Origin: Polaromonas sp.
GTDB taxonomy: Bacteria > Pseudomonadota > Gammaproteobacteria > Burkholderiales > Burkholderiaceae_C
Assembly: GCA_026786065.1 (NCBI GenBank)
Contig: JAJAYS010000289.1
Location: 1-13,058, forward strand
Reading direction: 5' to 3'
DNA: 13,058 nucleotides
Part shown: piece after piece, positions 1,391 through 13,058 of the stretch
How positions within the stretch are numbered: position 1 is the stretch's first letter
Layout of the letters: each line of letters opens with the position of its first letter
Program-made: the position numbers and the translations under genes
Notes under the pieces: model-generated
The model's database searches: none
What the model was told of the DNA's origin: nothing
What the model saw: only the letters and a program-made list of their open reading frames with translations

Positions 1391-3127
1391 ATGCACGACC
1401 CTTCCCTGGTTTTTGACTACATCATCATCGGCGGCGGCACCGCCGGCTGCCTGCTGGCCAACCGCCTGAGCGCCGACGCCTCCAAGCGCGTCCTGATGAT
1501 CGAGGCCGGCCGCAAAGACGACTACCACTGGATCCACATTCCGGTCGGCTACCTGCACTGCATCGGCAACCCGCGTTGCGACTGGCTTTACCAGACCGAG
1601 CCGGACGCCGGGCTGAACGGCCGCTCGCTGCGCTACCCGCGCGGCAAGACGCTGGGCGGTTCATCGAGCATCAACGGCATGATCTACATGCGCGGCCAGG
1701 CGCGCGACTACGACCGCTGGGCCGAGCTGACCGGCGACGCCGACTGGCGCTGGGACAACAGCCTGCCGCACTTCAAGCTGCACGAAGACCACTACAAGGG
1801 CGCCGACCCGATGCACGGCGCACGCGGCACCGCACCCGAGCTGATGCAAAACCCGTCCAATGCGTACCAGAAGATGCTCAGGCACCGCAATTCGGGCGGT
1901 GAATGGCGCATCGAAAAACAGCGGCTGCGCTGGGACATTCTCGACGCGTTTTCTGCGGCCGCCCAGCAGGCCGGCATTCCGGCCATCGCCGATTTCAACC
2001 GGGGCGACAACGAAGGCGTCGGCTACTTCGAGGTCAACCAGAAAAACGGCTGGCGCTGGAACACCGCCAAAGCCTTTTTGCGGCCAGCCTGCTTCGGCCG
2101 GCCAAACTTCGAACTGTGGACGCATGCGCAGGTCAGCAAACTAGTGCTCGAGAAACAGCCCGACGGCAGCCAGCGCTGCACCGGCGTCGAGGTCTGGACC
2201 GGCCGCGAGCAACTGGTGGCCCACGCCACGCGCGACCAGGGCGGCAAGCTAGGGGAGGTGCTGCTGTGCGCTGGCAGCATCGGCTCGCCGCAGATCCTGC
2301 AGCTCTCGGGCATAGGCCCCGGCGCGCTGCTGCAGCGCCACGGCATCGCGGTGCAGCAAGACCTGCCGGGGGTCGGCGAGAACCTGCAAGATCATCTGCA
2401 GATCCGCTCGGTTTACAAGGTGACCGGCGACAAGGCTTGGGGGCTGTCGCTGAATTCAATGGCCCGCTCGCTGTGGGGCAAGGCGCGCATCGGACTTGAG
2501 TACGCGTTGAAGCGCACCGGCCCGATGAGCATGGCGCCGTCGCAGCTTGGCGCCTTCACCCGCTCGTCGCCCGGGCAGCGCTGGCCGAATATCCAGTATC
2601 ACGTGCAGCCGCTGTCGCTTGAAGCGTTCGGCGAGCCGCTGCACGACTTCAACGCCTTCACCGCCAGCGTCTGCAACCTGAACCCGACCAGCCGCGGCAA
2701 GGTAGAGATCAAGACCCCGCGCTTTGAAGACGCCCCGGCGATTGCGCCCAACTACCTCAGCACCCCGCAAGACCGGCAAGTGGCCGCCGACTCGCTGCGC
2801 GTGACCCGGCGCATCGTCGGCCAGCCGGCACTGGCCCAGTACAAACCGGTGGAGTTCAAGCCCGGCGTTCAGTACGAGACCGACGACGAACTGGCGCGGC
2901 TGGCCGGCGACATCGCAACGACCATATTCCACCCGGTCGGCACCACCAAAATGGGGGCGGACGATGACCCGATGGCGGTGGTCGATTCGCACCTGCGGGT
3001 GCGCGGCGTGCGCGGTCTGCGCGTGGTCGATGCGGGGGTGATGCCGTCGATTACCAGCGGCAACACCAATTCACCGACGCTGATGATTGCCGAGAAGGCG
3101 GCGGCCTGGATTCAGGCGGGGGTGTGA
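1391..3127 (+). CDS. GMC-family FAD-dependent oxidoreductase (choline dehydrogenase/alcohol dehydrogenase type)
   Basis: A 578-residue flavoprotein of the glucose-methanol-choline family, which oxidises alcohols to aldehydes and passes electrons to a quinone or cytochrome carrier. The ADP-binding motif GGGTAG is at residues 14-19 and the acidic residue ending strand 2 follows in MIEAG (E38). The first GMC signature (PRGKTLGGSSSINGM) begins near 83 and the second (AGSIGSPQILQLSGIGP) near 293. The catalytic pair is His514 (HPVGTTKMG) and Asn558 (SGNTNSP). Their 44-residue spacing equals that of His466/Asn510 in choline oxidase. The reading frame is open further upstream, but the start at 1391 (MHDPSLVFDYIIIGGG) puts the FAD motif at the usual distance from the N-terminus. 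No signal peptide is seen, so it should be cytoplasmic or peripheral to the membrane. It is transcribed alone and divergently from mlaE. The substrate cannot be read from sequence; AlkJ-like or BetA-like activities are both possible. Confidence 0.93.
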   Translation: MHDPSLVFDYIIIGGGTAGCLLANRLSADASKRVLMIEAGRKDDYHWIHIPVGYLHCIGNPRCDWLYQTEPDAGLNGRSLRYPRGKTLGGSSSINGMIYMRGQARDYDRWAELTGDADWRWDNSLPHFKLHEDHYKGADPMHGARGTAPELMQNPSNAYQKMLRHRNSGGEWRIEKQRLRWDILDAFSAAAQQAGIPAIADFNRGDNEGVGYFEVNQKNGWRWNTAKAFLRPACFGRPNFELWTHAQVSKLVLEKQPDGSQRCTGVEVWTGREQLVAHATRDQGGKLGEVLLCAGSIGSPQILQLSGIGPGALLQRHGIAVQQDLPGVGENLQDHLQIRSVYKVTGDKAWGLSLNSMARSLWGKARIGLEYALKRTGPMSMAPSQLGAFTRSSPGQRWPNIQYHVQPLSLEAFGEPLHDFNAFTASVCNLNPTSRGKVEIKTPRFEDAPAIAPNYLSTPQDRQVAADSLRVTRRIVGQPALAQYKPVEFKPGVQYETDDELARLAGDIATTIFHPVGTTKMGADDDPMAVVDSHLRVRGVRGLRVVDAGVMPSITSGNTNSPTLMIAEKAAAWIQAGV

Positions 3128-3271: not shown

Positions 3272-3386
3272 TGTACAGGCCGATGGCTTTGAGCGCAGCG
3301 CGACGGGCGTTGTAGCCCAGCAGCGTTTCCAGCTCACGGGCGTCGATGCAGGATTCAGGCGGCGCCGCAGTCGCTATATATTTCAT
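3255..3386 (-). pseudogene. Remnant resembling the N-terminus of a MarR-family regulator
   Basis: A 43-codon frame on the minus strand starts ATG AAA TAT ATA GCG and contains ESCIDARELE followed by TLLGYNARRAALKAIGLYM, then stops. The core resembles the first helix of MarR-family regulators (LLGYxxRRAxxxI). Everything that should follow, including the winged helix-turn-helix, is missing, because the frame runs into the TGTCATTCC repeat and stops inside it. The start codon and first residues come from the palindromic repeat at 3373, so both ends are bounded by mobile-looking repeats. I read this as the remains of a regulator gene, not a functional protein. The MarR resemblance is from memory of the family and covers only about 30 residues, so the assignment is tentative. 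Confidence 0.4.
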
Positions 3387-3421
3387 AGCTGTTTACGCCC
3401 GTATTTATTCGGCTTGAAGCC
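3373..3421 (+). repeat. Dispersed palindromic element, copy A
   Basis: The copy begins with the palindrome GCTAT-ATATTTC-ATAGC (3373-3389), followed by TGTTTACGCCCG and a tail ending GGCTTGAAGCC. The same layout occurs at 10439 (inside gatA) and 12916. The shared pattern is GCTAT, about 7 bases, ATAGCTG, YTTRCGCC, then a variable arm ending in a GGCT block. I recall this element as frequent in Comamonadaceae genomes. Confidence 0.75.
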
Positions 3422-3622
3422 TTTCTCGCTTCAAAATCGTAACCACTCAGTTTGCCGGATATGGTGATTCCGCCTTGCGCCCTCTCCCCCTAGGGACAGG
3501 GGGAAAGGCTTGCAAGCACAGCCACCCAGGAACCGGCTCCTGGATGCCGACGCAAAGCCCAGTCCGGCGCAAGGCGGGCCACGGGAAACTCCTGATAAGC
3601 CGGTGCAGTCCCGGGCCTTACA

Positions 3623-6291: not shown

Positions 6292-6306
6292 CCGCAGGCG
6301 CAGCAG

Positions 6307-6353
6307 CCCCCTCGGGGGGCAGCGCAGAACGCGAAGCGACAAGCGTGGGGGCC
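6307..6353. repeat. 47-bp spacer repeat, copy 1
   Basis: The unit runs CCCCCTCGGGGGGCAGCGCA, then GAACGCGAAGCGACAAGCG and TGGGGGCC. It is repeated directly at 6391-6437 with one mismatch (GAAC against GTAC). The CCCC-CTCG-GGGG core is a tight hairpin and ACGC/GCGT flank the next loop. I recall this wording as a widespread intergenic repeat of Comamonadaceae. Confidence 0.8.
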
Positions 6354-6390
6354 GTGGTTTCCCCGCCGGGCCGCCCCAAGGGAAAATGCG

Positions 6391-6437
6391 CCCCCTCGGG
6401 GGGCAGCGCAGTACGCGAAGCGACAAGCGTGGGGGCC
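6391..6437. repeat. 47-bp spacer repeat, copy 2
   Basis: This is a direct repeat of 6307-6353, offset by 84 bp, with a single substitution. It ends three bases past the mreD stop codon, so in the operon transcript it begins immediately after mreD. That position suits a role as a 3'-end stabiliser or processing site between mreD and mrdA, but this is inference. Confidence 0.8.
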
Positions 6438-9368: not shown

Positions 9369-9668
9369 ATGGCCCTGACTCCCCAAGACATCGTCCGCGT
9401 CGCCGAACTCGCGCGGCTTGAGTTGCGCCCCGATGAAAGCGGCCACACGCTCGGCCAGATCAACGATTTCTTCAAGCTCGTTGAGCAGATGGCGGCCGTG
9501 AACACGGACGGCGTCGAGCCGCTGGCCCACCCGGCCGCGCTGCTGGGTGCGGTGGCGCTGCGACTGCGCGACGATGTCGTCAGCGAGACCGACCAGCGCG
9601 AAGCCACCCAGCGCAGTGCGCCGGCGGTTGAGCGCGGCCTGTTTCTGGTGCCGAAGGTGATCGAATGA
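9369..9668 (+). CDS. gatC: Asp-tRNA(Asn)/Glu-tRNA(Gln) amidotransferase subunit C
   Basis: The small subunit that wraps around GatA and GatB and stabilises the GatCAB complex. The 99 residues are the normal length. The opening [19 protein letters not shown] and the helix that follows ([28 protein letters not shown]) are typical of the family, as is the [11 protein letters not shown] segment near residue 60. The ATG at 9369 has no clear Shine-Dalgarno sequence, so translation may start on a short leader. It is the first gene of the gatCAB operon, and its stop overlaps the gatA start as ATGA at 9665-9668. It has no catalytic residues of its own. Confidence 0.96.
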
Positions 9669-11184
9669 GCGCGGCCCCAGGCAAGGCGCAGCGCGGCCAC
9701 GAACTGCACCAGCTTGGTGTGGCCGCGCTGGCGCAGCGGCTTGCGGCGCGCGAGGTTTCCAGCGTCGAGGTGACGCAGCATTTCCTGGCGCGCATTGAGG
9801 CGCAGCAAAACCTGGGCGCGTTTCTGGCGCTGGACGCCGAGGTGTCGCTGGCGCAGGCCCACGCCGCCGACGCCCGGCTGGCTGCCGGCGAGCGCGCGCC
9901 GCTGCTCGGCGTGCCGCTGGCGCACAAGGACGTGTTCGTCACCCGCGACTTCCCGACGACTGCCGGCTCGAAGATGCTGGCCAACTACCGCAGCCCCTTC
10001 GATGCCACCGTGGTGTCGAATCTGGCTGCAGCCGGCACGGTGACGCTGGGCAAACTGAACTGCGACGAGTTCGCGATGGGTTCAGCCAATGAAAACAGCG
10101 CCTACTCGCCGGTGCGCAACCCTTGGGACATCTCGAGGGTGCCCGGCGGCTCATCGGGCGGCTCGGCCGCCGCGGTGGCCGCTGGCTTGGTGCCCGCCGC
10201 CACCGGCACCGACACCGGCGGCTCGATTCGCCAGCCCGCTTCGCTGTGCGGCATCACCGGCATCAAGCCGACCTACGGGCGCTGCTCGCGCTACGGCATG
10301 GTGGCCTTTGCGTCCAGCCTTGACCAGGCCGGGCCGATGGCGGCGAGCGCGCTCGACTGCGCACTGCTGCTGTCAAGCATGGCCGGGCCGGACCCGGACC
10401 GCGACTCGACCTCGCTGGACCTGCCAGTCGTTGATTACGCTACTAATTTAATAGCTGCTTGCGCCCGCTCAGACTGGGCTTCAGGGCTAAAAGGCTTGAG
10501 AATTGGGCTGCCAAAGCAATTTTTCGGTGCGGGCTGCGCGGCCGACGTGCTGGCCGCCGTGCGCGCTGCACTGGCCGAGTTCGAGCGGCTGGGCGCGGAG
10601 CTTGTCGAGGTCGATTTGCCTTTGACCGAGCTGTCGATACCGGTGTATTACGTCATTGCGCCGGCCGAGGCCAGCAGCAACCTGAGCCGCTTCGACGGCG
10701 TGCGTTACGGACACCGGGCCGCCAGCTACAGCAACCTGAACGACATGTACCGCAACTCGCGCTCCGAGGGTTTCGGTGACGAGGTGACGCGCCGCATCAT
10801 GATCGGCACCTACGTGCTGTCGCACGGCTACTACGACGCCTACTACCTGAAGGCGCAAAAAATCCGCCGGCTGATCGCCGAGGACTTCCAGAAGGCCTTC
10901 ACCCAATGCGACATCATTGCCGGCCCGGTGTCGCCCACGGTCGCGTGGAAGCTCGGCGAAAAGTCGGGCGACCCGGTCGCCAGTTACCTGGCCGACATCT
11001 ACACACTGTCGTCGAGTCTGGCCGGGCTACCTGGCATGAGCCTGCCGGCCGGTTTTGGCGCGCACCGCATGCCGGTCGGGCTGCAACTGATTGGCAACTA
11101 CTTTCAGGAAGCGCAATTGCTGGGCGCGGCGCACCGGTTTCAGTTGGCGACCGACTGGCATCTGCGCACACCGGAGGCTGCAGC

Positions 11185-11188
<4 letters not shown>
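9665..11188 (+). CDS. gatA: Asp-tRNA(Asn)/Glu-tRNA(Gln) amidotransferase subunit A
   Basis: GatA is the amidase that releases ammonia from glutamine and channels it to GatB. The Ser-cisSer-Lys triad is intact: Lys88 (PLAHKDVF), cis-Ser163 in GGSSGGS (161-167) and Ser187 in [12 protein letters not shown]. The spacings of 75 and 24 residues equal those of the known K79/S154/S178 enzyme. The 507 residues are slightly more than usual. The surplus lies at about 258-275 ([17 protein letters not shown]), which is encoded by a dispersed palindromic element rather than ordinary gatA sequence. The frame continues unbroken into the conserved [14 protein letters not shown]. The insert falls between the amidase-signature core and the next conserved strand, probably in a surface loop. 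The start at 9665 overlaps gatC, with GAAGGTG upstream as a ribosome-binding site. Confidence 0.97.
10439..10494 (+). repeat. Dispersed palindromic element, copy B, inside gatA
   Basis: The copy starts GCTACT-AATTTA-ATAGC (10439-10455), one substitution away from the perfect palindrome, and continues CTGCTTGCGCCCGC. A second small stem, GCCC / GGGC, follows, and it ends in GGGCTAAAAGGCTT. It matches copies A (3373) and C (12916) in order and spacing. It is read in frame as [16 protein letters not shown]. Codons such as CTA, AAA and AGA at its right edge are unlike the GC-rich codons of the rest of gatA. Confidence 0.8.
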
Positions 11189-12726
<1,538 letters not shown>

Positions 12727-12915: not shown

Positions 12916-12963
12916 GCTATTATTTCAATAGCTGCTTACGCCGTTTTTTAGAAGGCTACAGCC
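12916..12963 (+). repeat. Dispersed palindromic element, copy C
   Basis: GCTAT-TATTTCA-ATAGC (12916-12932) is followed by TGCTTACGCCG, a T-run and AGAAGGCTACAGCC. The order and spacing match copies A and B. Here it is intergenic, downstream of gatB. The remainder of the window, 12964-13058, is GC-rich and may hold the edge of a further gene, but all frames are too short to judge. Confidence 0.75.
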
Positions 12964-13058
12964 AGATTTAACTTAAAAATTACGGCCTTGTGGCGTTTTT
13001 TCCCGCTGATGTGGCCGTCCCCGCCGGCCCACCCGCCAGCGCCCACAGCGGCTTGAGC

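Follow-up and report, generated by a model that had tools for sequence, protein, structure and literature searches.

We analyzed a window of 13,058 nucleotides, the whole stretch of DNA under study, which is one contig of a 2.93-Mb draft genome of Polaromonas sp. The GatA protein encoded in the window has its nearest named matches in Polaromonas (84-85%), and the label "Polaromonas-type" used below rests on these GatA matches. The features that concern us are the following.

9665..11188, + strand: gatA, an open frame of 507 amino acids (Amidase, PF01425)
10439..10511, + strand: full-length copy of a dispersed element inside gatA (profile match 10438-10511), read on the sense strand in the element's first reading frame
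10439..10486, + strand: well-defined 48-bp part of the gatA copy, encoding GatA residues 259-274
10487..10511, + strand: low-information tail of the gatA copy, overlapping the conserved GatA motif LKGLRIG and containing the rare codons CTA and AGA
3373..3440, + strand: element copy 3' of a long reading frame ending at 3127 (right end approximate)
12916..12985, + strand: element copy downstream of gatB, whose frame ends at 12726 (right end approximate)

The frame ending at 3127 is, by eye, presumably a GMC-type oxidoreductase. The first-pass annotation had placed element copies at 3373, 10439 and 12916, and a listing of repeats confirmed all three. It had the gatA copy at the right location but ending at 10494, short of the profile match. 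Its claim that a dispersed element is read in frame inside an essential betaproteobacterial enzyme holds, with gatA open throughout. The catalytic Lys-Ser-Ser triad was said to be untouched; the element does lie away in sequence from the invariant alignment columns K88, S163/S164 and S187, which hold the triad. Elsewhere in the window, the gatB stretch 12240-12599 has a GC content of 0.51-0.54, against 0.58-0.68 over most of the remaining gene, and a second, GC-rich dispersed repeat is present at 6306-6353 and 6390-6437.

Derived without the gatA copy, the consensus of the element is approximately CAGTC-GCTATTATTTTAATAGCTGCTTACGCCCGTATTTATTGGGCTAAAGGCC followed by a weak tail. The element is AT-rich and about 50-75 bp long. 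Its pattern matched the genome 221 times (at most three mismatches), compared with 0 for the reversed pattern. Since this pattern was derived from the window's own copies, a held-out profile provides the real test. From the 221 matches we collected 96 in 80 fetched stretches, chosen from the listed matches with the fewest mismatches first, together with the window; one place (L167) matched on both strands, so that the 96 matches represent 95 places. No long reading frame spans 66 of the 96, and frames of at least 130 codons cross the other 30. The profile was trained on 64 of the 66 frame-free matches (two were too short), with gatA excluded. With it the gatA copy scored 45.7 bits, an E of 2.1e-11 at genome scale, and none of the other 29 frame-crossed matches had an E above 0.0013. 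Reversal of the 310,711 bases searched, which preserves composition but not codon structure, served as a control and gave 0 matches. With a second profile, from which gatA was also left out, the gatA copy scored 50.5 bits over 73 bp without gaps. Across the family, matches with at most two mismatches came from 86 of 299 genomes, representing 47 of 141 genera, and the control gave 0.

The element had been described as palindromic. It has short invariant arms, GCTA/TAGC and GCC/GGC, but none of the seven predicted pairs showed compensatory changes in 20 chosen aligned copies, and covariation support for hairpins was thus not found. Folding z-scores were -3.6 for the consensus, -0.8 for the gatA copy, -1.6 for the copy at 3373 and -0.75 for the copy at 12916. 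The palindromic nature of the element is modest.

We compared the linker of 30 Polaromonas-type gatA genes (26 loci, L009-L034, and four named Polaromonas, L039-L042) with that of 80 other gatA genes. A gatA-excluded profile matched the linker in 11 of the 30 clade genes at E<0.01 and in 17 at E<0.1. It matched the linker in 0 of the 80 others, where two chance matches fell elsewhere (E>5). Judged by this profile, no copy is better preserved than the window's; training on copies from the source genome biases the profile in its favor. For the 13 clade genes that had no match at E<0.1, the case for descent from the element is made by position, by residues and by traces in the codons. Rare codons mark this place: in the 30 clade genes, residues 259-280 use ATA for 25 of 53 isoleucines (17 of 473 elsewhere in gatA), TTA or CTA for 35 of 97 leucines (21 of 1461) and AGA for 12 of 39 arginines (10 of 733).

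In a quick tree of 110 gatA rows with the linker masked, the 30 Polaromonas-type genes were monophyletic (SH-aLRT 99), and in a more careful tree of 49 of these rows, 12 of the 30 grouped together at 100/99. Three divergent genomes (L035-L037) that carry the same genus label are without the insert and group with short-linker genera. Two further genomes of the genus have a long linker with traces of the element, at 12.7 bits (E 0.003) and at 6.1 bits (E 0.36, not significant). Of the element-bearing genomes outside the clade, 28 were compared, and each gatA among them has a short linker without the element there. We saw no empty gatA site within the clade, so the event itself is not readable. 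One gatA of another genus (L358) has a weak element match near its start on the opposite strand (18.9 bits, E 3.5e-5), a different place from that in Polaromonas.

The first-pass annotation had the element adding 10-15 residues to GatA, and this was not supported. The linker stretch is 32-39 residues long in the 30 clade members, and 35 in 21 of them. The same stretch is also 35 residues in Hydrogenophaga, Tepidimonas, Tepidicella and Serpentinimonas, where it is encoded by GC-rich codons without the element, and the linker is likewise long in Roseateles-type and several Burkholderia-type GatA. In Rhodoferax, Variovorax, Acidovorax, Comamonas and Limnohabitans it is 26 residues, and relative to these short-linker relatives the gain is nine residues; the five best solved GatA chains are also about nine residues shorter here. 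The clade is sister to the long-linker genera (SH-aLRT 97 with 110 rows, 100/97 with 49 rows). Forcing Polaromonas together with the short-linker genera cost 19.5 log units (p-AU 0.10), which is not a formal rejection. As the four sister genera have the same length without the element, there is no clear gain of residues, and the element probably occupies a linker that was already long. The first-pass annotation stated that distant, element-free GatA proteins sharing both length and residues at this place would reduce the DNA similarity to chance. The four sister-genus sequences share the length but not the residues, and because the trace is common to the 30-gene clade and absent at this place from the 80 other genes, the likeness is not one of chance.

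A structural model of GatA (mean pLDDT 77, pTM 0.85) agrees in fold with the solved GatA chains. It places a helix at residues 259-267, followed by a loop to a strand at 279-283, and blocks of residues 251-280 have pLDDT values of 85, 67 and 81. The stretches below 50 are 1-11, 136-140, 212-218, 333-354, 365-371 and 377-391.

The element also lies inside other coding regions. The 96 matches are crossed by 33 distinct frames, of which 30, at least one per match, were scanned against Pfam (second frames at L176, L178 and L198 were left out). Counting only frames with a Pfam match, 14 of the 96 matches lie inside Pfam-supported proteins, in the following thirteen genes.

GatA: one copy
PutA (L145, 41-3250): two copies in opposite orientations, both matched in congeners too
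MoeA: copies in two paralogs
Squalene/phytoene synthase: one copy
Photolyase-related protein (DPRP): one copy
Uracil-DNA-glycosylase-type protein: one copy
DRL/SAF oxidoreductase: one copy
Double ABC ATPase: one copy
AceE: one copy
UvrD-type helicase: one copy
PD-(D/E)XK protein: one copy
Transglutaminase-type protein: one copy, with weak Pfam support (20.7 bits)

These genes have no relationship to one another, and their copies include both orientations and several reading frames. HisD and Lnt were excluded from the 14 because their element matches, near the N-terminus, precede the Pfam domain and may precede the start of the protein, which is uncertain. Taken together, these 16 matches have a median of 35.3 bits against 51.9 bits for the other 80, a gap widened by the 64 training copies among the 80.

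We then compared six coding sites in five genes besides gatA with their orthologs in 41 genomes of the genus. Counts refer to the matches listed (at most 30 loci per site) that cover the whole site with at least 60% identity, other loci being left out, and an ortholog was scored as bearing the element when it matched at E<0.01. The element was present in 3 to 16 listed orthologs at each site, and at every site some orthologs had no match. At PutA site 1, 8 of 16 listed orthologs bear the element and the length is identical in all 16; a comparable A-I-x-x-I run is present in the solved chain 3haz, which is one residue shorter. At the DRL/SAF site, 6 of 20 listed orthologs bear it and the length is identical in all 20. 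Element-free orthologs at these two sites thus have equal length, and their residues are already similar. These data indicate that here the element lies over native sequence with protein length unchanged, and GatA is probably a third length-neutral site of this kind.

Other sites vary in length. The element is present in 10 of 18 listed orthologs at PutA site 2 (length 41-45 in bearers against 33-54) and in 8 of 30 at the AceE site (36-44 in bearers against 28-40). At the MoeA site it is present in 16 of 30, and 12 of the bearers are 37 long; the 14 listed orthologs without a match span lengths of 21-54, with six at 21-29. Measured over the same MoeA stretch, three congeners (L316-L318) have 30 residues and most bearers 46, a difference of 16 residues or 48 bp. 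The source genome has 54 residues against 30 in the three shortest congeners (24 residues, 72 bp). These lengths indicate that the element was inserted at MoeA. For DPRP, the 3 bearers among 19 listed orthologs are 39-57 long. Of the 16 orthologs without a match, 12 are 26-30 long and four are 39-59; those four may be decayed copies.

The element is already in print as an unnamed statistical motif of Polaromonas naphthalenivorans CJ2. The motif pair ATAGCT(N)22CAAAAG was reported in 125 copies, of which 101 are intergenic, 18 lie in genes and 6 lie over gene ends; the part of that report available to us names no host genes for the 18 and says nothing of their reading frames or descent (PMC5217627). 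The genus is the same, and our profile consensus, compared by eye with the published motif, reads ATAGCT, 22 bases and CTAAAG, agreeing at five of the last six letters. Its in-gene share of 18 of 125 and our 14 of 96 in Pfam-supported genes are not strictly comparable, since our sample was listed best match first.

Repeats read in frame within genes are a known kind, as described for Rickettsia and for REPs. Rickettsia palindromic elements are dispersed between genes and also lie in frame inside conserved protein genes that stay open, with published lengths of 105-146 or about 150 bp (PMC2229807, PMC10969869). Our element resembles them in having copies both between genes (66 of 96 frame-free) and in frame in conserved genes. 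It differs from the printed accounts in its length of about 50-75 bp, outside their 105-150 bp, in its short arms and in leaving protein length unchanged at two well-sampled sites. On the Rickettsia trait of a stem-loop built from terminal inverted repeats, the observations here are the folding z-scores and the lack of compensatory changes given above.

Thauera is a betaproteobacterium. GTAG/CGTC-tagged REPs of 20-40 bp have in-gene copies in several species including Thauera, with hosts such as a DNA-photoreactivating enzyme gene (Thauera), recBCD and UvrD/REP helicase genes; the main text of that report names no Polaromonas, Comamonad- or Acidovorax (PMC3733652). The element similarly matches photolyase-related, UvrD-type and PD-(D/E)XK genes. 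However, it is longer, and by eye its majority consensus contains neither GTAG nor CGTC on either strand, although the ends of the element are not fixed. In a search for RAYT transposase genes, with which REPs are associated, Y1_Tnp genes were present in 15 of 16 genomes, and the element matched at E<1 in 3 of 8 listed Y1_Tnp loci, as well as in L141, which had been selected for its element.

The beta-proteobacterial repeat element BRE is likewise dispersed in the Comamonadaceae, including Polaromonas, with some copies wholly within coding sequences (PMC3110155). Its printed description for Bordetella (about 90 bp, 69% GC) sets it apart from our AT-rich element, and we set it aside as the element's identity on size and composition. 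MITEs cited for Polaromonas sp. JS666 (PMC10969869) are possibly the same element or another repeat of the genus. We found no paper containing the element's letters in the open-licence literature, and the accessible part of PMC2755013 holds nothing on it. As far as that literature shows, the gatA case, the genus-wide inheritance, the comparison of the proteins with relatives and the length-neutral sites are new.

How did the element come to lie in gatA? Here we observe the identity of the element, a position shared across the clade, its absence at the linker elsewhere and an open frame. Very probably, the gatA sequence descends from the repeat and has been inherited in the clade. A dispersed repeat of about 50-75 bp would have come to fill an existing, length-variable GatA linker in the Polaromonas-type common ancestor, presumably arriving by copying or mobility of the repeat. 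The frame of entry would be one that the repeat keeps open, reading A-x-x-x-I-A-A-x-A-R, and the linker, a short helix plus loop leading into the conserved LKGLRIG strand, would tolerate it. The old linker residues may have disappeared with this event or shortly afterwards, the element-bearing enzyme presumably works, and the copy would have been passed down the clade from then on, its DNA likeness fading at differing rates. The zero net length change counts against this explanation, as it is unlike the remnant of a clean 48-75 bp insertion.

Element-free orthologs of equal length at gatA, PutA site 1 and the DRL/SAF site lead us to propose, tentatively, that besides plain insertion the repeat also gets into genes by replacing a resident coding stretch of the same length. 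Such overwriting might, with the same reserve, be a copying process akin to conversion or template switching, with short similarity as its guide, and these three sites would be its products.

Alternatively, a clean in-frame insertion of the Rickettsia kind could have lengthened a short GatA linker that was later trimmed to its present length. We consider this rather unlikely: the sister genera share the GatA length without the element, and PutA site 1 and the DRL/SAF site have a single length whether the element is present or absent, although the nine residues gained over short-linker relatives, the 16 to 24 residues that MoeA received and the longer DPRP bearers are what insertion would leave. 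The preferred explanation and clean insertion overlap in their odds, because both share descent from the repeat and differ only in length history.

Selection could instead maintain the motif for a DNA or RNA function such as rare-codon pausing, protein binding, or an uptake or recombination signal. Recognizable copies at the same codons in several species, in gatA and six other sites, would fit this idea; matches in Pfam-supported genes nonetheless score lower, with the gap widened as noted above. Some orthologs lack a match at every sampled site (half of those listed at PutA site 1), the host genes are unrelated, the copies vary in orientation and frame, and no Rfam family reaches its cut-off within the window. 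We regard selection as improbable, and it is equally improbable that the coding copies are maintained sites rather than relics. Finally, a run of AT-rich codons could resemble the element by chance, as the lack of strict conservation in the gatA residues and the weakly defined tail might suggest; we reject this as negligibly probable on the strength of the match by a profile blind to gatA, the empty reversed control and the traces at the same codons across the clade.

Under the preferred explanation, descent of the gatA sequence from the repeat, repeat DNA that strayed into genes seems to have ended up as protein sequence while leaving the genes unbroken. These results indicate that the Polaromonas-type genus carries repeat DNA in the frames of core enzymes (GatA, PutA, AceE and MoeA), common to many species. 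The length-neutral copies offer a natural test of spread by insertion against copying over existing sequence, and the MoeA loop, which apparently takes two different repeats, presents filled and empty sites side by side.

Two minor observations concern these genes and involve loci L307, L315 and L193. By eye, the GC-rich repeat of the window resembles in-frame MoeA DNA of two congeners, and this DNA sits at the MoeA loop where the source genome has the AT-rich element. In AceE, residues ~61-118 of the source genome are absent from congeners and match at least 19 other places in the genome.
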